64,000 nt of DNA from Trueperella pyogenes (GTDB lineage Bacteria > Actinomycetota > Actinomycetes > Actinomycetales > Actinomycetaceae). Position numbers and translations under genes: made by a program. The stretch is from assembly GCF_900460345.1 (NCBI RefSeq), contig NZ_UHHW01000002.1, positions 2,046,001-2,110,000 of the forward strand. The letters are read 5' to 3'. Shown piece after piece: positions 48,831 to 64,000 of the stretch. Position 1 is the first letter of the stretch. Each line of letters opens with the position of its first letter. The notes beneath the pieces are model-generated. The model was not told the DNA's origin and made no database searches. It was given only the letters and a program-made list of their open reading frames with translations.

Positions 48831-49685
48831 CTACTTCACCGCACCCGATGTAATACCCGAGATGATCTTCTTTTGGAAGACCACGAAGATCGTCACCAAC
48901 GGAATGCTCATCACCAGCACGTAGGCGAAGATGAGATGCCAATTGTTGAGCGCGATTCCCGAGCTTGCAATGGTGTAGAGGTTCAACGGCAGCGTGTCCA
49001 CACGCCCGCCGATGACGAAGAACGCGTAGAAAATGTCATTCCACACGTAGAGACTGATGAGGATCGTCGCCGTCGAAAGCACCGGCTTGAGCAACGGCAA
49101 GATCAACCTAAAGAAGATCTGCACCGGGCCCGCGCCGTCAATGCGGGCGGCTTCCTCAAGCGAGGGCGGGATCGTGCGCACGAATCCCGTCACGAAAAAG
49201 ATGACAGTGGACATGTACATCCCCACATAGGTGGCGATCATGCCGATCGGTAATCCGGCGAGTCCCAGCTGACGCAAGAGCAGAACCAACGTCACCACAG
49301 CTGGCGGGAGCACAATGCCCGATATTCCAATCGCATAAAGTGCGGCCGACATCTTGCCGCCCCTGCGCGCCAACACCCACGCGGCCATCGAGCCCAAGAC
49401 GAGCACGAGGAAGACCGAGGGCAAGAGCAGCATGAGAGAACCGATAAACGCCCAGCCGACGTCGGCCTGCACCCACACCTCGCGCAGGTTCTCCCACAGC
49501 TGCCAGCTCGTGGGCAGGCCCAGGCTCAGCTCGGCGGCCTCGGCCTGGTTCTTGCCGGCGTTGACCACCAGCGTCCACAACGGCACGCCGATGAGGATTA
49601 CCGCGAGGACGACGGCGATCACCGGCTGAACCACGCGCCACACAGCCACAGAACGCTCCCGTGGCACACGCTCGTGCTTCGTCAT
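48831..49685 (-). CDS. ABC sugar transporter permease, MalG type
   Basis: 284 residues with six transmembrane helices. The EAA loop EEAARIDGAGPVQIFFRLILP near residue 185 (21 residues long, here shown with its first 20 plus P) docks the ATPase. Start ATG 49685 overlaps the stop of the partner permease (ATGA). No ATPase gene lies in this cluster, so a shared MsiK-type ATPase encoded elsewhere is likely, as is common in actinobacteria. Confidence 0.93.
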   Translation of the reverse strand: MTKHERVPRERSVAVWRVVQPVIAVVLAVILIGVPLWTLVVNAGKNQAEAAELSLGLPTSWQLWENLREVWVQADVGWAFIGSLMLLLPSVFLVLVLGSMAAWVLARRGGKMSAALYAIGISGIVLPPAVVTLVLLLRQLGLAGLPIGMIATYVGMYMSTVIFFVTGFVRTIPPSLEEAARIDGAGPVQIFFRLILPLLKPVLSTATILISLYVWNDIFYAFFVIGGRVDTLPLNLYTIASSGIALNNWHLIFAYVLVMSIPLVTIFVVFQKKIISGITSGAVK

Positions 49686-50587
49686 GACATTCTCCTTTCC
49701 CGACGCCGCAAAACCGCGATCAAGGGGAACGCAATGAACAACACGCTCAGGAACAGCACGAGGCTCATCGTGGTCGCCTGCGCGTACAGGCCCTGCCCGA
49801 AGGTGCGGAAGATGAACATGTTCAGCACCTCGGTCGACCCTCCGGGCCCGCCGCCCGTCGTCGCCGCGATGACGTCGAAGGAGTTCATCGAGCCCAGCAA
49901 GGCTGTGGCCACGTTGAACGTCACTGCGGGGGCGATGAGCGGAAGGCGGATCTTGGTAAAGACCTGCCATGGGCTGGCGCCGTCGATCTTGGCGGCCTCC
50001 AGCAGTTGCCCGTCGACCGTCTTCAGACCAGCGAGGTAGACGAGCATCGACAGCCCCATCCACTTCCACGAGTGGATGAGGATGAGCACGTAGAGGGTCC
50101 CTTGCGTGGAGCCCAACCACGAAATGGCCACCTCGTGACCGGCGAAGAAGGACAGTGCCTGGTTCAGGCCACCCGCCGTGTCGAGCAGGGCCTTCCAGAT
50201 GTAGCCTGCGGCGAGCGCGCTCATCACCACGGGGATGAAGAACAGCACGCGTACCGCGCGGTTGAGCAGCGTATCGCGTTCCAAAAGTAGCGCGAGCGCA
50301 AGGCCGAAGAAGTTCTGACAGATCGCAACACCAACCGCGTAAATGAGGGTGATCCGCAACGAGTTCAGCAGCGCGCCGTTGGCCAGCAACGTCTCAAAGT
50401 TGCGCAACCCCACGGGGTTGATCTCCGATTTGAAGCTGGACCAGTCCGTGGCGGCATAGACGAAGTTGTAGATCGTCGGCGTCAAGAAGAACAGCGCCAA
50501 CAACACGTACGCGGGTATGAGGAACCACCACGGGTGGGAGGCCCGGTAGGACCTCCCACGGGCAGCGATGGCGGATAGCGACGTCAT
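49682..50587 (-). CDS. ABC sugar transporter permease, MalF type
   Basis: 301 residues with six transmembrane helices. The EAA loop is LLEAAKIDGASPWQVFTKIR near residue 205. It starts two bases after the binding-protein stop. With the second permease and the lipoprotein it forms a CUT1-type oligosaccharide importer. The neighbouring alpha-galactosidase suggests alpha-galactosides as cargo. Confidence 0.93.
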   Translation of the reverse strand: MTSLSAIAARGRSYRASHPWWFLIPAYVLLALFFLTPTIYNFVYAATDWSSFKSEINPVGLRNFETLLANGALLNSLRITLIYAVGVAICQNFFGLALALLLERDTLLNRAVRVLFFIPVVMSALAAGYIWKALLDTAGGLNQALSFFAGHEVAISWLGSTQGTLYVLILIHSWKWMGLSMLVYLAGLKTVDGQLLEAAKIDGASPWQVFTKIRLPLIAPAVTFNVATALLGSMNSFDVIAATTGGGPGGSTEVLNMFIFRTFGQGLYAQATTMSLVLFLSVLFIAFPLIAVLRRRERRMS

Positions 50588-50589
50588 AT

Positions 50590-51918
50590 TTAGAAGCCCT
50601 TAGCTCCCATAGCGCGTGCCAGCTCCACAAACTGGGCCTGGGTGGCTTCGCCGACCTGTGCAGGGGTCTTGGTTCCTGCGATCATGTCGCCGAGGTTCTT
50701 GGCCAGGTCCGGGTTGGCGATAGCCTGCGCCTGCATGGAGCCGACCGAGCCCTTCAACGCGTCGTTCGCTTCGATGGCGGCCTGCGGAACGGACTTCGGA
50801 GTCTTGCCGTCCTTCATGATGGATACGGTGTTCTGAGAATCGATGAAGCTCTGGTAGCCCTTGGTCAGCCAGAAGGTCAGGAACTGGCGTGCGGCGGCCT
50901 CGCGCTTCTCGTCGCCGGTCTTGAAGGCGACGACGGCGTTGGTCTGCTCCGGATGGTTGGTGGCGCGGTTGCCTTTCTCGGAGATCGGGAAGAAGCCGAT
51001 CTTGTCGTTGAGGGTCTTCGCGTCGGTCAGCGAGGCCATGTTGGACAGCAGCGAGTTGGTGGCGATGGCCATGGCCGCCTTGCCGTCAAGCAGCGCACGA
51101 GCCTGCTGATCGAAGGTGCCGGTCTTGATGTCCTCGTTGTAGAGGCCTTCCTTAATCATCGAGGCGTACTTGTCGATAGCACCTTGGAGCGCCGGACCAG
51201 TGAAGCCATCCTCGTTCTTGTTGACCTTGTCCCACAGGCCATCCTTCGAGGCGTCGCCGACGAGGACCTGGACCGTCCACTGGGAGGCCCACCATTCGCC
51301 GCCCATCTCGTTGAGCGGGGTCTGGCCCTTGGCCTTGAGGTCACGGGCGAGGGTCAAGAGCTCGTCGAAGTTCTTCGGGATCTTGGCCCCGTTCTTCTCA
51401 AAGACCTCCTTGTTGTACCACACGCCCATCGTGGAGGGGGCGGAGACGAAGGCCGCGTAGCGCTTGCCGTCCAAAGTTCCGCCGTAGTCGAGGACGCCGT
51501 CGGCGTACTTCGACTCCCACGGCGCGCCGTCGAGCGGCAGCAGGTTCTCCTTGGCGTTGATCGGCAGCAGCATCGACGCCGTCGGCTGCCACATCGCCAG
51601 ATCCGGCTTGTCGCCGGTGGCGACCTTGGTCAACACGTTTTGCTCGTAGCCGTCAGGGATCGTGACGATTTCGACCTTGGCACCGGTGGCCTTCTCGAAC
51701 TCCTTGGCTACACCGGCCGGGATCTTGTTCGAGGACTGCGCAGCCCAGATCTTCAGGGTTGTGCCATCGAGCTTCGCGGTGGCCTCAGGCCACTTGGCGA
51801 CCTCGCTCGATCCGCTGCTGGGCTTGGCCTCGGGCTTCTTGCCTGCGCCAGGATCACTACAGGCGGCGAGCGTCACAGCGAGGACGCCCGCCAGAGCGAT
51901 GAGTTGTTTAGTTTTCAT
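50590..51918 (-). CDS. ABC sugar-binding lipoprotein
   Basis: 442 residues from ATG 51918, with GGGAGGAAAT upstream. Lipobox LAAC with cysteine near residue 20. The mature protein is a family 1 extracellular solute-binding protein (TTLKIWAAQSSNKIPAGVAK, then DLAMWQPTASMLLPINA). Its start overlaps the stop of the alpha-galactosidase gene (ATGA), so the two are translated together. Confidence 0.94.
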   Translation of the reverse strand: MKTKQLIALAGVLAVTLAACSDPGAGKKPEAKPSSGSSEVAKWPEATAKLDGTTLKIWAAQSSNKIPAGVAKEFEKATGAKVEIVTIPDGYEQNVLTKVATGDKPDLAMWQPTASMLLPINAKENLLPLDGAPWESKYADGVLDYGGTLDGKRYAAFVSAPSTMGVWYNKEVFEKNGAKIPKNFDELLTLARDLKAKGQTPLNEMGGEWWASQWTVQVLVGDASKDGLWDKVNKNEDGFTGPALQGAIDKYASMIKEGLYNEDIKTGTFDQQARALLDGKAAMAIATNSLLSNMASLTDAKTLNDKIGFFPISEKGNRATNHPEQTNAVVAFKTGDEKREAAARQFLTFWLTKGYQSFIDSQNTVSIMKDGKTPKSVPQAAIEANDALKGSVGSMQAQAIANPDLAKNLGDMIAGTKTPAQVGEATQAQFVELARAMGAKGF

Positions 51919-53999
51919 ATTTCCTCCCTTTCGCCCGGCATCTTTGCCGTGCAATTGTGCCGCCGGATTCGATAGACCCGTGCGGAGATTTCTTGGGCGG
52001 GAACCTTCATGAAGATTCCCGAAGCTGTGCTTTCCACGTCCCAGGTGGTGTCCTCGACGTTCTTCGGCGGGAACAGCTGCTCGCCCAGTTCCCAGCGCTT
52101 ATCTGTGATGCTCAGATCGGCGCTGCCCGACCGGTGCCAGACGAACAACAGGCCGTCCGCACCGGGGGCGGCGGGCAGCTGGGCGAGGGTGACCCATTCG
52201 CTATCCCACCCGGGCAAACCCGTGGGCCAAAGCGGATAGCGATCCGGCATCGAGTTCCGCTCGGCCTTGGCCAGCTTGACGGCCGCGGCCACGAGCTCGG
52301 CCTGTTGCAGCGACAATCTATCCAGGTGACCGCTGAGGTAGAGGCTGCCGGCCAGCGACGTCGTCAACGTCGACACCACCTCGCCGAGGGTCATCTCCGG
52401 CTGCGGAACACCCCAGTTGGCGGTTTGTTCCGGCAGTACGACGAGCGGGGCGCCCGCCGCGATGACCGGATACTGGGTCATGTCCTCCAGGTCTGAGGTG
52501 GACTGGAGGTGGGCGCTCGCCAGCAGCGCGTAATCGCTCGTCATCGCCCCAGAGGCACAGTTTTCGATGCGCAGATGCGGGAAACGCTGAGCCATGTCAG
52601 CCAACCAGGCGGCCCATGCGCGGCTGTGCTCGAGCAAGCCGTCTCCGGGGCTGTCCGCCCCCTCGTCAGGCCCGGTGCCGATGGAATAGTTGTCGTCCAC
52701 CTTGAGGTATTCGATACCGTATCCCACCATCCGGTCCAGGACGTCGGTCAGGTATGCCCGCGCTTCGGGCTTGCGCATGTCCAGGCGCATGCGGTCCTGC
52801 TCGACGATCGTCACCCCGGCGCGCTTCATACACAGCGGCTCGAGTTCGCCAGCCACCGGCGAGTTCACGCCCACCGCAAGCGGCTCGATCCACAGGCCGG
52901 GGGCCATGCCGTTATCCCGAATCATGTCCAAGACTGCCTCCAGGCCACCGTCAAAGCGGGTGGTCGAGGGCATCCACTGCCCGACGCTTGGCCACCAATC
53001 CGTGTCGCGTTCATCGGCGAACCAGCCGGCGTCGATACAAAAGACCTCAGCACCCGCACGTGCGGCAGCCGGAATGAGCGTGGAGAGTTTCGCCGAGTCC
53101 GGGTCCGCTTTGAGGGTGTTGAGGTAGTCATTGAAGACGACGGGGGCGATCAGCTTCGTCTCCCCTGTCTGTGCGCGCAGCGCGCGGCGATAGGCGGTCA
53201 TCTGGGCGACGGCGTCGTCCCACCCCGCGCGCGAATAGACGAGCGTGGCCGGCGGCGTCGTGAATTCTTCGCCCGGAGCCAGGACGCGCATCCACGAGTG
53301 CTGTAGGTCGGTCGGGCCGTAGAGCGCCAGGCCGAGGCTTTGGTGGCGGCGCGAGAGCTCGGCGGTCCAACCGCCGTTGTGCTCAATCTGCCAGCCGACG
53401 CACGGGCCAGCCGGATCCTCGACGTAGCCCGTAGGGGCGAACAGGCCCGCGGACCAGCCGCTTTCTGAGGCGAGCCGAAACGCGCCACGGGCGGAGTTGC
53501 CGTGCAGGTCGGAGCTGATATCCACGAGCAGATCGGCCAGCGGGCGGCGCTCCCAGCGGTTCTCGCACATCCACCCTGAACGGGCGTAACGCACGTGCAG
53601 ATCCGCGAATCGAGAAGCGGGCAGCACCGTGGCGGAGGTGATGGAGACGGCCGTAAGGTGAACGGGACTTGCGGAGGTGTTGCGGATCGTCGTCGTGAAC
53701 CGCAGGGCGTTTACGCCTTGCGGCGAAGTGATCTGTACGTCCGCCGCCAACCCGGTAATTTCGTCGCGTTGATGGACTGTCCAGCCCATCCACCCTGGGG
53801 GTAGCTCGGCCGTCTCCACGTTGATCGGGCGAAGGTCGCTGCCCACACGAGATTGCGTGAGGCGGTGGTCGACGAAAGCTCGCCCATGCTCAAGGGTGAA
53901 GCATTCGACGAGGACATTGGCGAAATTCGAGCTCGAACCCAACGCTAGGCCGACAGCACCCGCCTCAAGAGTGAGATGTGCCCATTGAGTCAGATCCAT
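51915..53999 (-). CDS. GH36 alpha-galactosidase
   Basis: 694 residues with no signal peptide, so it is cytoplasmic. The catalytic (beta/alpha)8 domain has FCIDAGWFADERDTDWWPSV, GLWIEPLAVGVNS, the nucleophile aspartate in EYLKVDDNYS near residue 440, and the acid/base region RIENCASGAMTSD near 490. It hydrolyses terminal alpha-galactose from imported oligosaccharides, feeding galactokinase. First gene of the operon, divergent from the LacI gene. The overlap with the binding-protein gene is four bases. Confidence 0.94.
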   Translation of the reverse strand: MDLTQWAHLTLEAGAVGLALGSSSNFANVLVECFTLEHGRAFVDHRLTQSRVGSDLRPINVETAELPPGWMGWTVHQRDEITGLAADVQITSPQGVNALRFTTTIRNTSASPVHLTAVSITSATVLPASRFADLHVRYARSGWMCENRWERRPLADLLVDISSDLHGNSARGAFRLASESGWSAGLFAPTGYVEDPAGPCVGWQIEHNGGWTAELSRRHQSLGLALYGPTDLQHSWMRVLAPGEEFTTPPATLVYSRAGWDDAVAQMTAYRRALRAQTGETKLIAPVVFNDYLNTLKADPDSAKLSTLIPAAARAGAEVFCIDAGWFADERDTDWWPSVGQWMPSTTRFDGGLEAVLDMIRDNGMAPGLWIEPLAVGVNSPVAGELEPLCMKRAGVTIVEQDRMRLDMRKPEARAYLTDVLDRMVGYGIEYLKVDDNYSIGTGPDEGADSPGDGLLEHSRAWAAWLADMAQRFPHLRIENCASGAMTSDYALLASAHLQSTSDLEDMTQYPVIAAGAPLVVLPEQTANWGVPQPEMTLGEVVSTLTTSLAGSLYLSGHLDRLSLQQAELVAAAVKLAKAERNSMPDRYPLWPTGLPGWDSEWVTLAQLPAAPGADGLLFVWHRSGSADLSITDKRWELGEQLFPPKNVEDTTWDVESTASGIFMKVPAQEISARVYRIRRHNCTAKMPGEREEI

Positions 54000-54074
54000 G
54001 TCGCGTCCTCGTTGTCGCTAAATGCTTGCCTTGGCACATAGACTAGGGTCGCCACGGCGCCGCTTCAAGACCCT

Positions 54075-54092
54075 TGGAAACAGGCGTTTCCA
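54075..54092. promoter_or_regulatory. Candidate LacI-family operator
   Basis: TGGAAAC, four bases, GTTTCCA form a perfect palindrome in the divergent region between the alpha-galactosidase and LacI genes. Its position fits repression of both. Confidence 0.6.
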
Positions 54093-54118
54093 TTTCCCAA
54101 AATTCGGGAGAGAAACAC

Positions 54119-54147
54119 TTGAAAGTGGGCTTGGTTCGGCGTATAAA
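54119..54147 (+). promoter_or_regulatory. Promoter for the LacI gene
   Basis: TTGAAA (54119-54124), a 17-base spacer and TATAAA (54142-54147). It is close to the sigma-70 consensus, 25 bases before the ATG. Confidence 0.65.
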
Positions 54148-54172
54148 TAGGCCAACCTGCAATACTGGAACC

Positions 54173-55189
54173 ATGTACAAACGGCCCTGGTACCCACCCA
54201 CTCTGCGAGACGTCGCGCGCGCCTGCGGGACCTCCCTCGCCACGGTATCGCGTTCGTTGTCCCCCACCTCCACGCGCAAACCCCGCGCCGCCGCCGACGT
54301 CGCCCGCATCGCCCACGACATGGGCTATAGCGAACCCAGCGCGAGCGCCCCGCACCTGGTGGTTCTCACCAGTGACGTCACCCGAACCGGCTATCGGGAG
54401 ACCCTCGGCGGAATCATGAACGTCGTCCGCGAGCACTCCCTCAACGTCTCCGTCGCCTTTATCGCCACTGGCGCCGAGCGCCGCAGCGACGCCGTCCACA
54501 GCGCCCTCCACAGACGGGTGGACGGGGTGGTCGTCCTCGAATTCGACACGCCCTCCACGCACGTCATCAACGACCTGCCAAATTCTCTCCCGTTCGCCGT
54601 CGCCGGCGGTTACCCGAAAGACGACGAAGCCTTCCCCCGCGCCTGGATCGACGACTACGCAGGAGCGCGAGCCGCAGCCGAACACATCGTGGCGCTCGGC
54701 CACAAGAGGATCGGATACGTGGGCCTGCCCCAGGCCGGGCATCCGGATCCGCGCGTACGCGGCTGGCATGAGGTCCTCGCCCTGCACGGAATTGCCACGC
54801 CCACACAGTTCGGCACGGGATGGTCCGCACAGACCGGGATGCGCGCCGCCGAGCACGCCATCGCCGCAGGTGTGAGCGCCGTGCTGTGTGGCAACGACGA
54901 CCTCGCCGTCGGCGTCATCGCAGGTTTATCCCACGCGGGCGTGCGCGTGCCCGAGGACATCTCCGTCATTGGTATGGACGATCATCCGCTCGCCGCCGCC
55001 ACGGTTCCCGCGCTGACCACCGTCCGCCTCGACTTTGAACAACTCGGCGCCGCCAGCGCCCGGCTGGCCCTCGGGATCGAGCCGCAGACCGAAGCTGCGC
55101 ATAAGAACATCCACATCCCGCCGGAATTGATCATTCGGGCGAGCACGTGCGCGCCGATATCTGATCTCCCAAGAGTTTTCGGTAGGTGA
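54173..55189 (+). CDS. LacI family transcriptional regulator
   Basis: 338 residues from ATG 54173. The helix-turn-helix is LRDVARACGTSLATVSRSL at residues about 8-27. The periplasmic-binding-protein-like sensor follows (VDGVVVLEFDTPS, AAAEHIVALGHKRIGYVGL, ISVIGMDDHPLAAATVPALT). It lacks the usual hinge-helix consensus but has the normal length. Probably represses the alpha-galactoside operon. Its 3' end overlaps the convergent ABC exporter gene by 59 bases. An upstream in-frame ATG would add 33 unrelated residues across the promoter. Confidence 0.92.
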   Translation: MYKRPWYPPTLRDVARACGTSLATVSRSLSPTSTRKPRAAADVARIAHDMGYSEPSASAPHLVVLTSDVTRTGYRETLGGIMNVVREHSLNVSVAFIATGAERRSDAVHSALHRRVDGVVVLEFDTPSTHVINDLPNSLPFAVAGGYPKDDEAFPRAWIDDYAGARAAAEHIVALGHKRIGYVGLPQAGHPDPRVRGWHEVLALHGIATPTQFGTGWSAQTGMRAAEHAIAAGVSAVLCGNDDLAVGVIAGLSHAGVRVPEDISVIGMDDHPLAAATVPALTTVRLDFEQLGAASARLALGIEPQTEAAHKNIHIPPELIIRASTCAPISDLPRVFGR

Positions 55190-56873
55190 CGTTGTTGAGC
55201 AGTTCAGCGTGAGTGCCTTGCGCGACGATCGTGCCGTTGTCGAGCACGACGACGTGGTCGGCTATGCGGATAGACGCGAGGCGATGAGCGATCACAATGG
55301 TGGCGCGCCCAGAGCGCAGCTGTTTGATGTGGGCTGCGATCTGGGATTCCAGGAACGGATCAATGTTGGCTAAGGGCTCGTCGAGGATGAGCAGCTCCGG
55401 ATCGCGCAAGATCGCTCTGGCGATACCTATTCTTTGACGTTCACCGCCAGATAAGGTTGTTCCCCTGTCACCGACATGCGCATCCAACCCGCCGAGCGAT
55501 TCGACCAGGGATGCGATTTGTGCGGCACGCAGGGCTTGCCAGATCTCCTCATCGCTGGAGTCGGGCCGAGCAAGCGTGAGATTATTGCGGATTGACCCGG
55601 CGAAGATGTGGCAGTCTTGGGGGATCAGGGCTAGTTTTTGCCGGTATTCGTCAGGCGCGTATCCGCGCAAGTCGGTACCGCTAAAGCGCATGGTTCCGGC
55701 ATCGGGGTCGAGGAATCTCATGGCGAGATTAGCAAACGTGGTTTTACCTGCCCCCGAGGCGCCGACGATCGCTATGGAACGGTGAGGACGGACGTCCACC
55801 GATACCTCTTTGAGCACTCTCTGGCCATCGTAAGCGAAAGACACCTGGGCGGCGACGAGCGACTCCTCCTCGCCAAGCAGTTTTTCGACGTCGACAGGCC
55901 GGGACGGGATGGGATCGCGAGCGTCGAGGATCTCGTTAATACGTGTGGCGCATGCACCGAGCTCTCCGAATTTACCGAGCATTCCCACGAGAGTCAGCGC
56001 CGGTGCAGTGCTCATGCCTGCTAGCACAATCGCGACGGGTAAGAAGGCACCCTCTAACTGGCCATTGAGTACCCGCCCAGTGAGGATGACGAGCAAAATC
56101 GTGGAACATACAGAGGTCGATATCGCCGCGTAGGAGCTCTCCCAGGCTTTACGCATAGATTGCCGGCTCATGATGCGTTGCACCCGCTTTGTTAGCCCGT
56201 CGATGATGGCCTGCTGGTTAGCCACCATTCCCAGGGAGCGGAGCTCCCTTTGCCCCTGGATTGAGTCCAGGACGGCGATGCGCAGGTCAACAAGCGCGCC
56301 TCTCAACGCCCTACCTTGTTTTTGCTGCAGGGGAAGTAACACGATCGGCAGTGCGATCATGGTCAGGATAGGAAAGAGCATGATGAGCCCCAGCGGGCCG
56401 ATTAGCCAGCATAAGACCGCAACAAAAATGGACGGACTGACCACAGCACAAATGATGGTTGAAGCAGTGTGTGCATAGAACCACTCGAGCTTTTCGGCGT
56501 CGTCCATAGCGGCGGAAGCCACATCGCCGGTACGTCTGCCCTGCAAGCCAACCGGAGCGATGCGTTTAATGGCTTGGTAAATGTGGATTCGGAACGTATG
56601 CAAGATCCGGTACGCCACCTCATGCGACCACCACACCTCGAGCAGCGTTCCCAGCCCATGGCCAGCAACTAGGGCAAATAGGAGAGCCACGAATCCTGCC
56701 AGCGGGGCGTCAACATCGGTGATGAACTGGGTCGAGATCCACACCGACGTCACAGTAACTCCAACAAGAGTGACCTGTGCGAGCGCAGTGACAACAGTGG
56801 AAGCAACGAACAATGGCATGCATTCGCGCAGGCTGCGCATAAGCCGGAGCATGTTTGAAAGCGTCTGGGTCAT
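55131..56873 (-). CDS. ABC exporter half-transporter, second of pair
   Basis: 580 residues. Six transmembrane helices lie in residues about 15-300, then an ATPase domain with Walker A GASGAGKTTFANLAMR, Q-loop IPQDCHIF, signature LSGGERQRIGIARAIL and Walker B LLILDEPLANID. The CydC/MsbA-like architecture works as a heterodimer with the upstream gene. Start ATG 56873 has AGGGGAG and lies one base after the partner's stop. In this operon it probably exports the modified peptide, which is inference. No peptidase C39 domain is present. Confidence 0.93.
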   Translation of the reverse strand: MTQTLSNMLRLMRSLRECMPLFVASTVVTALAQVTLVGVTVTSVWISTQFITDVDAPLAGFVALLFALVAGHGLGTLLEVWWSHEVAYRILHTFRIHIYQAIKRIAPVGLQGRRTGDVASAAMDDAEKLEWFYAHTASTIICAVVSPSIFVAVLCWLIGPLGLIMLFPILTMIALPIVLLPLQQKQGRALRGALVDLRIAVLDSIQGQRELRSLGMVANQQAIIDGLTKRVQRIMSRQSMRKAWESSYAAISTSVCSTILLVILTGRVLNGQLEGAFLPVAIVLAGMSTAPALTLVGMLGKFGELGACATRINEILDARDPIPSRPVDVEKLLGEEESLVAAQVSFAYDGQRVLKEVSVDVRPHRSIAIVGASGAGKTTFANLAMRFLDPDAGTMRFSGTDLRGYAPDEYRQKLALIPQDCHIFAGSIRNNLTLARPDSSDEEIWQALRAAQIASLVESLGGLDAHVGDRGTTLSGGERQRIGIARAILRDPELLILDEPLANIDPFLESQIAAHIKQLRSGRATIVIAHRLASIRIADHVVVLDNGTIVAQGTHAELLNNVTYRKLLGDQISARTCSPE

Positions 56874-56874
56874 G

Positions 56875-58638
56875 TCAGTTTTCTCCCCTCTGCGCTGCAA
56901 CGAGCTCAGACCACGTAGAGCGCGGATCTTGTTCCAACTCGTGCGGATCGCCCGCACAACTCACACCACGATGAGCGAGCACGACGACGCGGTCGGATTT
57001 TGCCGCGGTATCAATACGGTGCGTGACAAGGACGAGCGTGAGTTCCGGGTAGGCCACGCGCAGCTCACTTATGAGTTGGTGTTCCGTATAGGTATCGAGC
57101 GCAGAGGTGGATTCATCCAACACAAGAATTTGCGTCCCGCGAATCAACGCCCTCGCAATGGCAAGACGCTGCTTTTGCCCACCAGACAAATTCTTAGCGT
57201 GTTCAAAAACCTCAACATCCAAAACGTCTTCAGGGGCCTCCTGCAGCCAGCCGGCGTCGTCGTCGAATTCCATGTGCAGGCGATCCGCGCGGGCTATCGT
57301 CAGCGCCTTCATCATCTCCGCTTCGCTAGCATCAGGGTTCGCGCTCAGCAGGATCTCGCGAATAGTGCCGGGGAAGATGATGGGCTCTTGCGGGACAAGG
57401 GTAACGAGTCGTGTCACGTCGTCGGTCGACGGCGATAGCCCGAAAACACCGATCTTTCCGCTTAGGGGCTGGTCGTAGCCGATGAGCAACCCCAGGGCAG
57501 TTGATTTCCCGGACCCCGATAAGCCGACGATCGACGTCGTTTGCCCAGCCGCGATGTGAAAACTCATGTGCTCAATAGCTGGTTCGTCGCTTCCTAGATA
57601 TGTGTAGGAGACGTCCTCAAAAGAAATACCCAGGCTTGGGTCTATCTCCAGATCGCGTGCAGCGTGACCAGGCTTAGCATCGGGCGGAATGCGCGTGAAA
57701 ATCTCATTCATTGACGGCAGTGCTGAAATACCGAAGAAGGACTCGTGCCAGCAAGACGAGAGCTGGTTAAAAGGGCGGAACATTTCAACCGATAGCAGCG
57801 TGACGAGGAATAGTTGACCCAGTTCCATGCTTCCCGCACGCACCTGGGCAATGGCAATAATCAACGCCAAAGCCGGGCCCAGGACTTTCATCATCCCACT
57901 CAAACCCGTTTCACCTAACGACAGGCGAAGCTGGCCCAAAGTGGACGTCAAGAGCTGACGGGACTGGCGGTGGAGCTTATCCCCATAGGAATCAGCAGCC
58001 CCAAAGGACTTTAAGGTCGACATGCCCATCATCGCGTCGATGAAATCTGCGTTAAGAGTTTCATACGCGACCCAGTGGGATTGCCCGCGTTCAGCCAACG
58101 CCTTGTCCCATAATCGCGGAATCGCAACGACGGCGAGCCCACACACGAGCAATACGAGCGCTATCCACACGCTTACCTGCGCGAGGGCAATAGTCAGCGC
58201 TATTGCAGTGACGGCCGTGACCGCCAATTGCGTGAAATATTTGATGAAGTAGGGCTCAATAGCCTCCACGCCGTCGGTGATAACAGACTGAATATTGCCT
58301 GACCTCCCCAGGCCGACCCGCATCGGACCTTGCCGATCAATTTCCTGAAGTAGCGAACGCCGCAGGTTACTCTTCACCACAAGTCCTGCCCGATTTTGAG
58401 CCAGCTGCCCTAACACATCCATGAAAGGACGCACAACAAGTAAGACAGCGATGACGACGATCAGCGGCACAATGGTGGAATAGCGTCGTTGCCCCAGTAA
58501 TTCCGTGAAGAGACTAGCGTTCAGCGCGGCGGTCGCCACGTACAGGGCAGATACAATCAGCCCAATTAAAATAGGTGGAATCAACAGCCACAACGTCAGC
58601 CCTCCGGCTGCCATTACTCGTCGTTGTTGTGTGAACAT
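56875..58638 (-). CDS. ABC exporter half-transporter, first of pair
   Basis: 587 residues. Six transmembrane helices, then an ATPase domain with Walker A GLSGSGKSTALGLLIG, signature LSGGQKQRLAIARALI and Walker B ILVLDESTSALD. The D-loop and H-loop (LVTHRID) look complete, whereas the partner gene has LANID, so the two sites may differ in activity. It follows ycaO by 27 bases and is closely coupled to the second half-gene. CydD-like in overall form. Confidence 0.93.
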   Translation of the reverse strand: MFTQQRRVMAAGGLTLWLLIPPILIGLIVSALYVATAALNASLFTELLGQRRYSTIVPLIVVIAVLLVVRPFMDVLGQLAQNRAGLVVKSNLRRSLLQEIDRQGPMRVGLGRSGNIQSVITDGVEAIEPYFIKYFTQLAVTAVTAIALTIALAQVSVWIALVLLVCGLAVVAIPRLWDKALAERGQSHWVAYETLNADFIDAMMGMSTLKSFGAADSYGDKLHRQSRQLLTSTLGQLRLSLGETGLSGMMKVLGPALALIIAIAQVRAGSMELGQLFLVTLLSVEMFRPFNQLSSCWHESFFGISALPSMNEIFTRIPPDAKPGHAARDLEIDPSLGISFEDVSYTYLGSDEPAIEHMSFHIAAGQTTSIVGLSGSGKSTALGLLIGYDQPLSGKIGVFGLSPSTDDVTRLVTLVPQEPIIFPGTIREILLSANPDASEAEMMKALTIARADRLHMEFDDDAGWLQEAPEDVLDVEVFEHAKNLSGGQKQRLAIARALIRGTQILVLDESTSALDTYTEHQLISELRVAYPELTLVLVTHRIDTAAKSDRVVVLAHRGVSCAGDPHELEQDPRSTWSELVAAQRGEN

Positions 58639-58665
58639 CCTTCTCCTCCGTGAACGATAACGCGT

Positions 58666-60885
58666 CTAAGCGTGCGGCATCGGGAAATTGTTGACATCTT
58701 CTTCGGCCAGGGGCCTGTCACGCCACCCGAGCTTGACAGCCTCCTGAACAACTACACCATTACCCAAGTAAGGAAATGCGGCTGGCGTGTTGCCTACCGT
58801 TCCAGGCACAAGCGTCCTGATGACGGTCAGCCCGCAGGAGGCCACATCTGGAGACGTGATATCAACGACAATGATGCGGTTTCCATGGCCGTATACCTTC
58901 TCCATATATGTACTTAGGCGGTCATTAGGCAGTTCGTTAACTGTGCTCGGCTCTCGTGTAGGTACACGATCAAGCAATGGGGCGACGTGTTCGACTGCTC
59001 GGGGATCAAGGAATACTTCCTGTTGCACTAAGAGATCGTCTACATCCTTCAAGTCTGGACGGAAGTCATCCAGGTAGCACCTATCCTCACGCCATGCTTT
59101 ATAAGATCGACCGGGCAATAATCCATCGCGTATAGCTGACCAGTGAATGCCATCGGGGTTTTTCAGATCATGTGCCCCTTCCTGGAGGGTTAGTGCCTCG
59201 CTCCAAGCTTTTAACGCGGCTTCTGCTAGCGTCGAACGACACGAGAAGCCAATGTGGACAAGTGTGGATATATCGTTGTGAACAACGCCTGCTGCTACGG
59301 GGATATTGAACGTGTTATCCACGTGAATCAATGCCGGGCGTAGAGCCTCTTGCGCCCCATCGAATAGCGCTAACTGAGATTGCGTGAGCTTGATATGCGG
59401 CAAAGCGTGTTTGTTGAGCCACCACACCATGGTGGCATGCCTTTCTATTATTTCGCTCAATCCAGAAAGAATCGCTTGTTCGGTTGACATCCCGGCGGCT
59501 ACTCCAGCGAAGGCTGGGAAATTAATTCGTGGTTGATGGCGGTTCTGGCGCAGATACCAATTGACATAGACAAGCGATGCTGGAACATAGACTGCACTGT
59601 CGTCGTCTAGATAGCGACCTTCAACCCAGCCAATTCTCAAGTCAGTCGTGAGGGGCTGAAAGGGAAAACCCGCAGTCTCATACTGCCTAGATGAGAACAA
59701 CACAAGTTCTCTAGGATCGAGTGCTGGAAAGCCACGCCTTGTCAGCTCGTTATAACTGGCGTAATGGACAGGTTTTAGATCTATGAGATTTGAACAATAC
59801 CGTTCCGCTGATTCTCCAATGGCAGCATAGAAGTTTTTCTTGCGAATGCGGTCTATGTCATCCTGAGCCGTATTCGAAGGGATAATGCTTGAACCTTGGC
59901 AAAATACAGTGTTGATGTATCCTGACATTTTTGACAAGTCCGTTGTTCGCGCTTGAGTGGTGGCCAGCGTCGGAGGCATCATAGGTGAGTGGGCGACGGT
60001 AGTCAGTTCTCGCACTATCCCGTAAAGACGATCAACTAAGAATGTGGGCGGATGGATAGGTAGATTCTTATCCGATGGATTGATGAAACTTCTGGGAAGT
60101 ACCGAGTGAATTACTAAATCAGAGTTTGGTCTCATTTCCCAAACTGTGTCGAGAACAGAGCTTTGTGCCTGATCAACCTGCATCCCAGAGCAGATACGAC
60201 GCAATAATGTGGCACATTCTTCCACTAGGAGGGGAGTACTAGTAATAACCCGGAGGAAATTGCCACGCAAAGCTGGTTGGAGAGACGCGGTAAATACCTC
60301 GTCGTTTACGGAGTTAGCACGTTCGCGAGCCAAACAGTCACTATACGTCGCTCCGCGCCCTTCAATAACAGCTGGCCCCACGCGCAACGAACAGCCGCAA
60401 TAATCAACAGGAATCCACGATATATTCAGCTCACTGAGTGCCCGTAATTCATCGTCAAATTGCACTCGAGATTCACTGGACCTACACACAATCAAGAAGC
60501 CACCACGGAAGACTTCGTAAGAGCACTCTCGTGGGCTCCGATGCGAATAGGAGCAACTCAGACCTTTCCGCGTTAGCGCATTAACAAGGACTTGCCCGAG
60601 TAACTCGTCTCCACAAACAACCACGGTTGCCGACCTAGACGAATCCGGTACACCCAACTCTCGTTCTTTAGTCGCTGCCGGCAATTCACGCAACGAACCG
60701 TGTTGAGCAAGCACAGAATAGAGAGGGGAACCAAGAACATGCTGAGTGCACTGCGTTCTTGCACTGTCGAACAATTCAGCGATACAGACAGCATCCGCTT
60801 GAAGTATCAACTGCGTACCATCTGCGCATGTCAGCAGAGACTTCGATTGCGCTAAGGGTCTTAGTTCTGCACATATTTCAAGCAA
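58666..60885 (-). CDS. YcaO-type azoline cyclodehydratase (TOMM synthase, C-D fusion)
   Basis: 739 residues from TTG 60885, with GGGGAGGG upstream. The YcaO domain fills about residues 340-739. It has AAIGESAERY near 361, GVAAGMSTEQAILSG then LSEIIERHA near 478 (SxxxExxER, ATP/Mg binding), AWSEALTLQ near 560, and the proline-containing C-terminus FPMPHA typical of azole-forming YcaO proteins. The first 300 residues include a Rossmann-like stretch (SATVVVCGDELLGQVLVNAL) resembling the ocin-ThiF/E1-like partner that binds the precursor leader. It would convert Cys/Ser/Thr of a ribosomal peptide to azolines. Moderately AT-rich compared with flanking genes. Confidence 0.9.
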   Translation of the reverse strand: MLEICAELRPLAQSKSLLTCADGTQLILQADAVCIAELFDSARTQCTQHVLGSPLYSVLAQHGSLRELPAATKERELGVPDSSRSATVVVCGDELLGQVLVNALTRKGLSCSYSHRSPRECSYEVFRGGFLIVCRSSESRVQFDDELRALSELNISWIPVDYCGCSLRVGPAVIEGRGATYSDCLARERANSVNDEVFTASLQPALRGNFLRVITSTPLLVEECATLLRRICSGMQVDQAQSSVLDTVWEMRPNSDLVIHSVLPRSFINPSDKNLPIHPPTFLVDRLYGIVRELTTVAHSPMMPPTLATTQARTTDLSKMSGYINTVFCQGSSIIPSNTAQDDIDRIRKKNFYAAIGESAERYCSNLIDLKPVHYASYNELTRRGFPALDPRELVLFSSRQYETAGFPFQPLTTDLRIGWVEGRYLDDDSAVYVPASLVYVNWYLRQNRHQPRINFPAFAGVAAGMSTEQAILSGLSEIIERHATMVWWLNKHALPHIKLTQSQLALFDGAQEALRPALIHVDNTFNIPVAAGVVHNDISTLVHIGFSCRSTLAEAALKAWSEALTLQEGAHDLKNPDGIHWSAIRDGLLPGRSYKAWREDRCYLDDFRPDLKDVDDLLVQQEVFLDPRAVEHVAPLLDRVPTREPSTVNELPNDRLSTYMEKVYGHGNRIIVVDITSPDVASCGLTVIRTLVPGTVGNTPAAFPYLGNGVVVQEAVKLGWRDRPLAEEDVNNFPMPHA

Positions 60886-60995
60886 TTCACCCTCCCCTAA
60901 GTTACTCGTGTATAGATCTATTTCATAGCGTCAGATAGCAAGGCACGCGAGCTCGTCAAGCTGTCTATCTACGTGAATATCCTGACCACGAGCGA

Positions 60996-61058
60996 CGCAC
61001 CTGCACGCCAATGCGCACTTAAACCGGAATTTCCTGTGCGCATTGGCGTGCAGGTGCG
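60996..61058. repeat. Perfect 23-bp inverted repeat between precursor gene and ycaO
   Basis: Arms 60996-61018 and 61036-61058 are perfectly complementary, with a 17-base loop. The arm begins CGCACCTGCACGCCAATGCG. Lying between the short peptide gene and ycaO, it could end most transcripts after the peptide gene, giving excess precursor over enzyme. It could also stabilise the short mRNA. It lacks a T-run. Confidence 0.85.
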
Positions 61059-61132
61059 ACATTTGTGCCTGGGCCAAACATCAGTTTGAGACAGCATCAA
61101 ACGACGCTCCCTGACAGTTAGATGTCATCCGT

Positions 61133-61243
61133 TTATGCCCATGCGAACGTGCCCGTGGTACGGGCATGATGGCAGTGAGGAACTGTAATCTGAGCGGTGG
61201 ATTCCTCTGAGATTTCGACAATGACGAGATTCTCCATCATCAT
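61133..61243 (-). CDS. Candidate RiPP precursor peptide
   Basis: 34-36 residues. Three consecutive ATGs (61243, 61240, 61237) follow AAAGG, and 61240 or 61237 has the best spacing. After the Mets the N-terminal half is acidic and hydrophobic (ENLVIVEISEESTAQITV, leader-like). The C-terminal half PHCHHARTTGTFAWA holds Cys and three Thr that YcaO could cyclise, plus three His. It reads in the same direction as ycaO and is preceded by an iron box and promoter. No homologue is known to me. The call rests on position, ribosome-binding site and composition. Confidence 0.8.
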   Translation of the reverse strand: MMMENLVIVEISEESTAQITVPHCHHARTTGTFAWA

Positions 61244-61259
61244 CACCTTTCTGGATAGT

Positions 61260-61290
61260 GGGCGAGAAACAAAATCGCCCTCGCTTTTTT
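61260..61290 (-). promoter_or_regulatory. Leader hairpins before the precursor gene
   Basis: On the minus strand, GGGCGA can pair with TCGCCC, or alternatively GCGAG with CTCGC. The two stems share bases and exclude each other. They lie between the iron box and the ribosome-binding site. Confidence 0.35.
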
Positions 61291-61292
61291 GT

Positions 61293-61311
61293 TTAGGGTA
61301 GGCTACCCTTA
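61293..61311. promoter_or_regulatory. DtxR/IdeR-type iron box in divergent promoter region
   Basis: TTAGGGTAGGCTACCCTTA matches the DtxR/IdeR consensus TTAGGTTAGSCTAACCTAA at about 16 of 19 positions and is nearly a palindrome. On the minus strand it overlaps TTGTAT (61324-61319), an 18-base spacer and TACCCT (61300-61295), a plausible promoter for the precursor gene. Iron-loaded repressor here would block both divergent units. Confidence 0.8.
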
Positions 61312-61336
61312 CTTAAGGATACAACACTTTCCTACG

Positions 61337-62599
61337 ATGACTAGCCCCCAGATGAACGAACTTTTATTTCAAGCCACGCCAGCGAAAATCCGACATTCGG
61401 CACACAGAATAGAATCTCTCGACACCTCTGCGCCCGTTCGCGTGAGTGGAAACATACGGTTGCCCGGCGGTTCCGTTCTGTTTCCGATCTGGCGAATTAG
61501 AGATGATAAAAGGGAAATATACGGTGGATGGATTGATGCGGACTTTGCAGTCGCAGTCCTGCACGCAGGAACCGCGCGCGTATTTCGCGCTGGAGATTTC
61601 TTTCCTCCCGGAAGTTTTGTTGAACCAATTGAGAATGAAGCAGCAGGCTGGGAATTGCTCGCGTCGTCGTTCCTATGCTCAGGCATACATTACGGCATCG
61701 AAGCTGACGGCAATCTCGTCGAAGTAACGACGACGACGTATCCTTTCGCTGTAAAGGTCAAACACAAACGCATCGTTGCTATATCCAGCGACGGTACACG
61801 TATTCCGATTGATTGCTATGGCGAACTAGCAATCTCTAGGCCCACATTCGTGCACGTGTACGGCGGCTTTGGCAAATCCAATACAAGTTTCTTTTCTTCT
61901 CAGATTGCAAGCGCATGGCTTGACCAAGGATTCAATATTGCGCTTGTTCATACTCGAGGAGGAGCGGAATACGGCGCCTCCTGGCATGAACAGGCGCAGC
62001 GTCATGGACGCGCACTGGTACGTTGTGATGTCGCAGCAGCTCTTCGCGCCTTACACGACCAACGTATATGTTCGCCACGACAGACTTTCCTACATGGCAT
62101 GTCGCATGGAGCGCTTGTCGTTGCCTCTACTGCGATGCATTCTCCTGGTCTCGCAAATCATTATGTATGTCGCGTTCCTATAGCGACAACGCGGAATATT
62201 CACCTTAACTCCCTCAGCCGTGAATGGATCAGTGAATACGGCGATCCAAGAACCTCTGACTGGGACGCATTTATGAAATATGAAGATCCTATTGCAACTC
62301 CAGTTTATGGTTCACTGAAGGGAACGTCGTGGTTTGTTTCGGCCTATATAGACGACGAAGTGACTCCTGTGGCTCATGCGGATCTACTGGCTGAGAAGCT
62401 CCGCGCAAATCAAGCTGAACTGACATACTACCGTTATTGCGCATCTGCAACGCACCAAGGGGCATCTTCAACCCAAGTTCGACAAGAGCATTCCGCTCAG
62501 TTGTGGGCCTACCTCACCACACACGCACGCCACATGGACACCACTCATGCGACTACTCCCGCATATGGTGATGTGTTCCGAGAAGGCGAGGAACGGTGA
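61337..62599 (+). CDS. Prolyl-oligopeptidase-like serine hydrolase
   Basis: 420 residues from ATG 61337. The C-terminal alpha/beta-hydrolase domain of the S9 family has the oxyanion segment FVHVYGGFGKSN near residue 190 and GGAEYGASWHEQAQ. The nucleophile is in HGMSHGALVVAS (GxSxG), the acid in YIDDEVTP, and the histidine in SATHQGASS. The N-terminal half is much shorter than the usual beta-propeller (about 170 residues). It might trim the peptide or release metal from its complex, which is inference. The stop overlaps the permease GTG. Confidence 0.88.
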   Translation: MTSPQMNELLFQATPAKIRHSAHRIESLDTSAPVRVSGNIRLPGGSVLFPIWRIRDDKREIYGGWIDADFAVAVLHAGTARVFRAGDFFPPGSFVEPIENEAAGWELLASSFLCSGIHYGIEADGNLVEVTTTTYPFAVKVKHKRIVAISSDGTRIPIDCYGELAISRPTFVHVYGGFGKSNTSFFSSQIASAWLDQGFNIALVHTRGGAEYGASWHEQAQRHGRALVRCDVAAALRALHDQRICSPRQTFLHGMSHGALVVASTAMHSPGLANHYVCRVPIATTRNIHLNSLSREWISEYGDPRTSDWDAFMKYEDPIATPVYGSLKGTSWFVSAYIDDEVTPVAHADLLAEKLRANQAELTYYRYCASATHQGASSTQVRQEHSAQLWAYLTTHARHMDTTHATTPAYGDVFREGEER

Positions 62600-63615
62600 T
62601 AAATGACCGTCGCGGGCGTGTTTTGCTCCTTATTGCGCTAGCTGTTCTACTTGGCATCTGCCTATTATTGGGCGTCGCACTGGGCGCCACCGACATCTCT
62701 TTGTCCTCGATACTGCACGTTATTCGAGGTACATTGATTGGCGATGACGGCGGCGTAGAGCAGCAAGTTATTACAGATATTCGTTTGCCGCGCGTGTTGC
62801 TAGGATTTGCGACGGGAGCTGGGCTGGCTATGTGCGGCCTGATCACCCAGTCGTTGTTAAGAAATCCGCTAGGTGATCCGTACATCCTTGGCATCTCTTC
62901 CGGAGCGTCGACCGGAGCAGCGCTTGTCATTGTTATGGGCAGCTCTCACGCGATCCTCGCTTCGCTCGGAGTGACAGTAGGGGCATTCCTTGGAGCGCTC
63001 CTCGCTATGGTCTGCGTGGGGTTCCTCGCCAGTGCAGGAGGCCGCATCACTCCCGCACGAATCATTTTCGCGGGTATGGCCGTTAACTATTTCTTCTCAG
63101 CGCTCACAAGCCTAATCACAGTCATGGCTAAAAACGCTGCCGGTGCGAAATCTATTGTGTTCTGGATACTTGGCTCTCTCACCTCAGCATCATGGAAAGA
63201 CGTGTGGATAGCGACCGCTTGCACCGCCTTTGCTTTCGCGCTGTTCTTTCTTATGGGACGCCGCGTTGACGTACTCAATCTCGGCGACGATTGTGCAAGA
63301 TCTCTGGGCACTAATCCTCGCACTTACCGAGCAGCGCTCATTGCAATAGTAGCTTTCACCGTTGCCGTCCTCGTCTCGTTGACCGGAGCAATTGGGTTTA
63401 TTGGGCTGGTTATTCCCCATCTTGCCAGGCTGCTTGTCGGATCAACCACCCGCAATACGCTACCTGTGGCTATGGTCGCTGGCGGGATTCTGGTTGTCGC
63501 GGCAGATCTGTGCGCCCGTCTAATTATCCGTCCTGCCGAGCTTCCCATCGGAATCCTCACAGCCTTAGTGGGTACTCCCATGCTCATGGTTTTGATCAAG
63601 AAACATGCACACTAG
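62596..63615 (+). CDS. FecCD-type iron/metallophore ABC permease
   Basis: 339 residues with about nine to ten transmembrane helices. DIRLPRVLLGFATGAGLAMC and NPLGDPYILGISSGAS are the FecCD hallmark motifs, and GAIGFIGLVIPHLARLLVG near residue 260 contacts the ATPase. The GTG start overlaps the hydrolase stop, with GAGGA upstream. Together with the following lipoprotein it forms an importer for iron complexes, haem or cobalamin. The iron box upstream favours an iron ligand. Confidence 0.95.
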   Translation: MINDRRGRVLLLIALAVLLGICLLLGVALGATDISLSSILHVIRGTLIGDDGGVEQQVITDIRLPRVLLGFATGAGLAMCGLITQSLLRNPLGDPYILGISSGASTGAALVIVMGSSHAILASLGVTVGAFLGALLAMVCVGFLASAGGRITPARIIFAGMAVNYFFSALTSLITVMAKNAAGAKSIVFWILGSLTSASWKDVWIATACTAFAFALFFLMGRRVDVLNLGDDCARSLGTNPRTYRAALIAIVAFTVAVLVSLTGAIGFIGLVIPHLARLLVGSTTRNTLPVAMVAGGILVVAADLCARLIIRPAELPIGILTALVGTPMLMVLIKKHAH

Positions 63616-63628
63616 AAAAGGAGAGATA

Positions 63629-64000
63629 ATGCACAGCAGCAAAATGACAGCGTTGATCGCATCCTTTGCCATCCTGGCAACGGGTTTATCTGCTTGCTCA
63701 TCAACACCATCGAAACAGTCGGAATCTTCGCCTAGCCAGGCTGACAAGGTCACAGTCAAAAACTGTGGTAAAGAACAAACCTTCACAAATAAGCCATCGA
63801 AGGTTGTTTCCCTCGGCGTTACGGGACTTGCATATCTCGTTGCAGCTGGGGCAGAAGACAAAGTGATTCTGCGTGCAAATGAATGGGGCGAAGACCCCGC
63901 AGCGTGGATGGCTGGTAAAGCAGACAATATTGAAACGGTTCAAGAACCGATTTCCATGGAGGCCCTTGTGGCCAAACAACCAGATTTGGTCTATGGGGGA
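63629..64000 (+). CDS. Iron/metallophore-binding lipoprotein, partial
   Basis: The first 124 residues of a TroA-type periplasmic-binding protein, running off the right edge. AAAGGAG precedes ATG 63629. Lipobox GLSACSS with cysteine near residue 25. The mature start (VTVKNCGKEQTFTNKPSKVV then SLGVTGLAYLVAAGAEDKV) is that of FepB/FecB-like receptors. It lies 13 bases after the permease. An ATPase gene should follow outside the window. Confidence 0.92.
   Translation, partial: MHSSKMTALIASFAILATGLSACSSTPSKQSESSPSQADKVTVKNCGKEQTFTNKPSKVVSLGVTGLAYLVAAGAEDKVILRANEWGEDPAAWMAGKADNIETVQEPISMEALVAKQPDLVYGG

Follow-up and report, generated by a model that had tools for sequence, protein, structure and literature searches.

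Toward the end of a 64,000-nucleotide stretch of the Trueperella pyogenes genome (the window; bases 2,046,001-2,110,000 of contig C2, which has 2,269,745 bases in a 2.31-Mb genome) lies a gene cluster for a ribosomally synthesized and post-translationally modified peptide (RiPP), next to an importer of the FecCD type. An earlier note on this DNA had described a precursor peptide gene, a YcaO cyclodehydratase and two ATP-binding cassette (ABC) half-transporters on one strand, and a hydrolase, a FecCD permease and a binding lipoprotein on the other. Reading of the open reading frames (ORFs) together with Pfam searches showed this gene set to be correct, and the iron box noted between the divergent operons is present, with the sequence TTAGGGTAGGCTACCCTTA at 61293-61311. 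An importer ATPase, which the note had suggested looking for to the right of the window, was found at 64624-65385. The features, by position in the window, are:

55131-56957, minus strand: ABC half-transporter 2, exporter fold (PF00664 and PF00005; nearest NCBIfam model CydC, under the cut-off)
56875-58638, minus strand: ABC half-transporter 1, exporter fold (PF00664 and PF00005; nearest NCBIfam model CydD, under the cut-off)
58666-60885, minus strand: fused YcaO cyclodehydratase, LynD/TruD/MusD-like (PF02624; TIGR03604 above the cut-off; structural model with a predicted local distance difference test score, pLDDT, of 91.3)
60987-61067, minus strand: long hairpin in the gap between precursor and YcaO genes (inverted repeat with 32-nt arms, 88% complementary)
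61133-61237, with extra in-frame ATGs to 61243, minus strand: precursor peptide gene, 34-36 amino acids (alignment A1; purifying selection)
61293-61311, no strand assigned: DtxR-type iron box between the divergent operons (16/19 to the consensus)
61337-62599, plus strand: S9 (prolyl oligopeptidase-type) hydrolase (PF00326; prolyl endopeptidases in the PDB; GMSHG Ser and the His present)
62596-63615, plus strand: FecCD importer permease (PF01032, 293.8 bits)
63605-64615, running beyond the window end at 64000, plus strand: iron-type substrate-binding lipoprotein (PF01497, Peripla_BP_2)
64624-65385, just past the window, plus strand: importer ATPase (flank reading and Pfam)
65397-66912, past the window, minus strand: two methyltransferases (flank reading and Pfam)
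66926-66944, past the window: second iron box, ahead of the methyltransferase pair (box pattern)

The minus-strand genes run in the order precursor, YcaO, ABC half 1, ABC half 2, and the plus-strand genes in the order S9 hydrolase, FecCD permease, binding lipoprotein, ATPase. Both ABC halves carry complete ATPase motifs, and the true start of half 2 may lie downstream of its GTG. The open frame of the S9 hydrolase starts at TTG 61289; the alternative ATG 61337 is the likelier start because the TTG lies before the iron box. A locus from the same genus (in genome G006) encodes a YcaO that is 90% identical.

The most likely form of the precursor consists of the leader MENLVIVEISEESTAQITVP and the core HCHHARTTGTFAWA, starting at ATG 61237, 61240 or 61243, with a border that would fall directly after Pro. 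In an alignment of 17 precursors (A1), Met1, Pro21 and His26 are invariant, and by reading every core (17/17) holds a cyclisable Cys, Ser or Thr. A Shine-Dalgarno-like sequence lies ahead of most precursor starts. The proportions of synonymous (pS) and nonsynonymous (pN) differences between the window gene and its counterparts were 0.13 and 0.01 for locus L016, 0.56 and 0.09 for L018, and 0.75 and 0.18 for L040; changes are mostly synonymous, which, as judged from these comparisons, shows purifying selection. The precursor gene is regarded as real because it is conserved near and far, has Shine-Dalgarno-like starts, and has pN well below pS. A profile search with the precursor recovered 39 relatives among 42 candidates (query sequences included) from Arcanobacterium, Mobiluncus, Schaalia, Actinomyces, Microbacterium, Agromyces and Salinibacterium, and those with names are all labeled hypothetical or uncharacterized. 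Their cores are of two main types, PHCHH...AW and LAPN[AS][NH][NH]H... with an F-A-W or similar end; the distant precursors do not match the HCHH motif and were recognized from a small-ORF listing. The hairpin between the precursor and YcaO genes has a fold z of -6.1. Hairpins with z <= -2.97 and little sequence conservation occupy this gap in 7 of the 10 loci folded (at this threshold there was none in L041, L049 or L051), and they probably limit read-through into YcaO.

The conservation of the cluster was examined in 38 loci (the window, L016-L019, L040-L058 and L099-L112). Genome matches at E <= 1e-60 numbered 20 of 200 in the family search and 8 of 396 in the order search, own genome included, and all were taken; in the class search 35 of 394 genomes matched, and 14 of the 34 other genomes were taken. 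All 15 loci of the PHCHH group contain YcaO, both ABC halves, FecCD, the substrate-binding protein (SBP) and the ATPase, with the S9 hydrolase in 14 (L040 is without it) and the methyltransferase pair in 3 (the window, L018 and L048). Ten further loci with homologous precursors (L050-L052, L055-L057, L099-L101 and L103) all have YcaO, the ABC pair, FecCD and the ATPase, and the SBP was undetected in L100, L101 and L103. The earlier note had proposed a genome search for the peptide-ycaO-FecCD arrangement. Among the 28 loci with a precursor recognized by the hidden Markov model, 25 keep YcaO, the ABC pair, FecCD and the ATPase together, in gene orders that range from divergent operons through a single strand (L051 and L052) to a split arrangement (L048). 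Nine loci matched mainly over the YcaO domain (L104-L112) also have FecCD and the ATPase in every case; the ABC pair was found in three (L107, L111 and L112) and a precursor candidate in two (L105 and L107), with no convincing precursor in L104, L106 or L108-L112.

The iron-box pattern, allowing at most one mismatch, occurs at three sites in the 2.31-Mb genome; only two are perfect, and both are in this locus. The reversed pattern gave one match and a first-order Markov sequence no perfect site in 2.3 Mb, so the boxes stand above chance. DtxR-type boxes scoring 15-18 of 19 are present in all 15 PHCHH loci, and those of L051 and L052 score 16 and 14, where 0.2 sites scoring at least 14 are expected per 64 kb (five simulations, window only). 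L018 has a second box (18/19) ahead of its methyltransferases. When six relatives were searched with a stricter box pattern, five matches lay outside the cluster; they came from G140, G032 and G019. G463, G427 and G498 yielded no match, their cluster boxes deviating from this pattern, which also missed the cluster boxes of G140 and G032. One G140 site lies ahead of a PF01497 binding protein (nearest model ferrichrome/ferrioxamine, below the cut-off) and another upstream of a CbiQ-type energy-coupling factor (ECF) protein, one G019 site is ahead of an MptD-family ECF component (TIGR02185, above the cut-off), and the remaining two precede an FG-GAP protein and a cupin/methyltransferase pair. The T. 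pyogenes genome encodes two DtxR-family proteins; one was examined, which contains metal-binding and FeoA domains and has its highest score to the iron-dependent DtxR (247 bits; cut-off 290). The third iron-box site of this genome (L061, C2:1137946-1137964) lies ahead of the gene for a protein that looks secreted and matches FG-GAP weakly, and a similar FG-GAP-like protein in G140 (L116) also has a box, which suggests an iron-regulated surface protein.

Apart from the scores in L051 and L052, the distant loci have no DtxR-type box. The Zur-like motif AAYGANAANNNTTNTCRTT, at no more than one mismatch, has 10 sites in 9 of 18 distant loci with 0.0 expected; it was derived from L050 and L055, its independent part is seven sites in the other 16 loci, and site positions were checked in part. 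In G415, the three genomic Zur-like sites are the cluster promoter, an L36 gene and the L33/S14/L31 genes, the last two both adjoining CobW_C proteins. Zinc-independent ribosomal proteins and CobW-like proteins are typical Zur targets. The motif gave no site in G077 or G080. As read from these motifs, metal-responsive control, DtxR-type in one branch and Zur-type in another, appears well supported. The zinc-type cluster of G415 has as neighbors a gene for a CobW-family GTPase and another FecCD importer (L055:1019-4888). Loci L104-L109 have two adjacent YcaO genes with a FecCD importer, four of the six with a Zur-like site, and the precursor candidates L105:7203(+) and L107:6980(+) end in VHS[SN]NH...SSVAWR.

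YcaO scored 233.7 bits against TIGR03604 (SagD-type; cut-off 219.25). Its structural model matched LynD over the whole length (E 3e-34), followed by TruD and MusD. The superposition on LynD has a template-modeling (TM) score of 0.59 and a root-mean-square deviation (rmsd) of 16, and domain packing may differ. These cyanobactin heterocyclases share the whole-length fold of the fused YcaO but differ from it in sequence (identity 18-20%) and in fit (TM 0.5-0.6, large rmsd); to our knowledge their products are not metallophores. A check of residues 1-350 for a leader-binding domain (C protein or RiPP recognition element) gave no NCBIfam match, the whole-protein fold being LynD-like, and the L056 homologue reached 27.6 bits to TIGR03882, below the cut-off of 36.9. 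The PDB title of MusD mentions ATP-dependent peptidase activity, and by analogy YcaO itself might cleave the leader. A SagB-like dehydrogenase, which the earlier note had thought might lie nearby, was not among the nine cluster and flank proteins scanned with Pfam, a scan that included no dedicated SagB search.

Building on the gene set, its conservation and linkage, the boxes and the selection on the precursor, all shown here from sequence, we propose that the cluster encodes a ribosomal metallophore that the cell makes, exports and takes up again, under the control of iron in this genome and of zinc in relatives; we give this reading a probability of roughly 70%. The core of the earlier proposal, that a YcaO RiPP under iron control is coupled to a metallophore-type importer of its own, has good support from a linkage that survives rearrangement and from the metal-responsive boxes; the suggested hydrolase role is doubtful, and the remark on the absence of any described system has to be amended (see below). 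The steps that we infer are the formation of azolines, the binding of metal, outward transport through the ABC pair and the return through FecCD. When iron is scarce, a DtxR-type repressor would leave the box at 61293 and the precursor would be made. The fused YcaO would bind the leader and, going by its family, convert the Cys of the core to thiazoline and at least one of its Thr residues to methyloxazoline; azolines are expected rather than azoles because no dehydrogenase was seen (no search was dedicated to one). Methylation is probably the task of the two methyltransferases, which have an iron box to themselves. The S9 hydrolase or a different peptidase would remove the leader with a cut behind the invariant Pro. 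Once exported by the ABC pair, the product would use its His side chains and ring nitrogens to bind iron, and the importer of lipoprotein, FecCD and ATPase would return the metal complex. Cys-free cores of relatives, under Zur-type boxes, would pass through the same cycle for zinc. We lean slightly toward a wider version, in which a broad actinobacterial family of YcaO-modified ribosomal metallophores, the first ribosomal siderophores and zincophores, re-tunes one scaffold between iron and zinc. The scaffold would comprise a short leader, Pro, a His/Asn-rich core, Ser/Thr and then an F-A-W-like end; the iron branch would hold the DtxR-controlled Cys-containing cores of Trueperella, Arcanobacterium and Mobiluncus, and the zinc branch the Zur-controlled Cys-free cores of other actinobacteria.

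Several observations weigh against the metallophore interpretation. Three loci (L053, L054 and L102) have a related YcaO and precursor (core LAPNGNHHPS) with no FecCD, and L058, with a possible precursor, also lacks FecCD. The FecCD proteins of L100, L101, L103 and L104-L112 are only ~25-40% identical to the queries, which does not establish orthology; the loci are related, so the counts are non-independent trials; and at the thresholds used neither a DtxR-type nor a Zur-type box was found in L056, L057, L100 and L101. The ABC pair is CydDC-like, and its transport direction cannot be read from the sequence. The permease, binding protein and ATPase of the importer each come closest, among curated models, to a "putative F420-0 ABC transporter," without reaching the cut-off. 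These importer models speak for a different cargo, with FecCD importing another ligand (F420-0, heme, a corrinoid or another siderophore), or with the ABC pair serving as an importer like IrtAB or YbtPQ, which have the exporter fold too, and the peptide leaving otherwise. Seven strong FecCD permeases are spread over five places in the genome, which also favors such a cargo; the same number puts the chance of an importer within 10 kb of a given point at an estimated ~4%. This explanation is unlikely, as the ABC pair follows the precursor and YcaO on the same strand, the importer and precursor share the intergenic iron box, and the importer follows the cluster across rearrangements.

It is slightly less probable still that the product is a bacteriocin induced by metal starvation, with the ABC pair providing export and immunity and FecCD taking up another metal complex of the same regulon. 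Antibacterial activity is known for several azoline RiPPs, and in L053 and L054, where the importer is absent, a major facilitator superfamily transporter lies next to YcaO, near the related precursor. Two findings speak against such a role: FecCD and the ATPase stay with YcaO and the precursor in 25/28 loci despite changed gene orders, and the core is His/Asn-rich and strongly conserved. A more serious contender, possible though clearly in the minority, differs from the proposed iron metallophore in the metal alone, which would here be Zn, Cu, Mn or Fe(II). Softer metals are well matched by a core of His and Cys, and related clusters are under Zur-type boxes. Iron is nevertheless preferred, given that the DtxR-type box also precedes iron-type importers in G140 and G019, that this locus holds the only two perfect boxes of the genome, and that one of the two DtxR-family proteins which the genome encodes scores best, if below the cut-off, to the iron-type DtxR.

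The S9 hydrolase corresponds to the catalytic part of prolyl oligopeptidase, with no recognized N-terminal propeller domain, and a cut after the invariant Pro would fit its family. The earlier note had it maturing the peptide or freeing the metal, a role that is doubtful. The enzyme was undetected (tblastn, window S9 as query) in L040 and in ten distant full loci (L050-L052, L055-L057, L099-L101 and L103). The nucleophile Ser is replaced by Pro in L016 and L017 (2 of 11 aligned sequences), with the His kept in 11/11 and the catalytic Asp ambiguous in the alignment. An essential role in maturation was rejected on both grounds, the loci in which S9 was undetected and the lost Ser. The S9 proteins of L016 and L017, from two sister genomes, have 76% identity compared with at least 90% for their neighbors, as if decaying. 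Prolyl oligopeptidase-family proteins also occur near YcaO in L111 and L112. For the methyltransferases, the nearest models are CmoA and a daptide methyltransferase, both below cut-off, and a diverged pair lies directly after YcaO in L100 and L101. By our own count in the alignment, the CmoA-like protein has a Ser at the position of a CmoA Arg that we take to be Arg199 of the Escherichia coli enzyme. Synthesis of carboxy-S-adenosylmethionine was rejected on this basis, and a plain S-adenosylmethionine methyltransferase appears likelier.

The statement in the earlier note that no such system was described needs correction. The mobilisins, a predicted family of thiazole/oxazole-modified microcins, were named in 2015 with no function given in the main text (Cox, Doroghazi, Mitchell; PMC4603692). 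As set out there, Mobiluncus and other actinobacteria encode a fused cyclodehydratase and, close to it, a short peptide with few Cys, Ser and Thr residues; B, C and D proteins are listed, and precursors were not identified automatically (PMC4603692). The main text of that paper does not contain the words iron, siderophore or metal, and no mention of an importer or of iron control was noted (PMC4603692). The YcaO of Mobiluncus mulieris (P0014) shares 99% identity with the L048 member and 55% with that of the window, and through this link the present YcaO family appears to match the mobilisins. Both the fused cyclodehydratase of the Mobiluncus group and the short nearby peptide were found here; the listed B protein was not seen among the Pfam-scanned window proteins or the L048 ORFs read or scanned, L048 being partly masked and no dedicated search having been made. 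Within the open-access literature, as far as its texts could be covered and with subscription papers outside the scope, no YcaO RiPP metallophore and no metal role for mobilisins was recognized. There is a strong case for a new function, the proposed metal role, in an already named azoline-peptide family.

Among better-known systems, methanobactins and bufferins are RiPP metallophores for copper made with multinuclear nonheme iron-dependent oxidative (MNIO) enzymes. They resemble the present product as gene-encoded, modified, metal-binding peptides (metal binding here being predicted) but differ from it in that YcaO and iron- or zinc-type control are found here; no MNIO enzyme (DUF692-type) was matched by Pfam in the nine cluster and flank proteins. 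Siderophores of the yersiniabactin or pyochelin type use thiazolines as metal ligands, are controlled by starvation, have dedicated uptake, and are made by nonribosomal peptide synthetases (NRPS). Starvation-type control is shared, as are thiazoline ligands and dedicated uptake, both predicted for the present cluster, whereas NRPS manufacture is not: the genome gave no match to the condensation domain (PF00668), nor to IucA/IucC (PF04183).

Siderophores are usually made by NRPS or NRPS-independent siderophore (NIS) enzymes, and the RiPP metallophores known to us bind copper. If confirmed, a gene-encoded scavenger of iron or zinc would be cheap, could evolve through point mutations and could easily be mined; the azoline-peptide family of 2015, an orphan, would gain a function. 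Such a scavenger would also point to a way in which a host-associated actinobacterium with a small genome can produce a metallophore while having neither a condensation domain nor an IucA/C synthetase. With its DtxR and Zur branches side by side, the family is a natural experiment in how the metal choice of a peptide shifts. To the left of the cluster, at 48831-55189 of the window, the ORF list apparently shows a sugar ABC transporter, an alpha-galactosidase-like enzyme and a LacI-type regulator.

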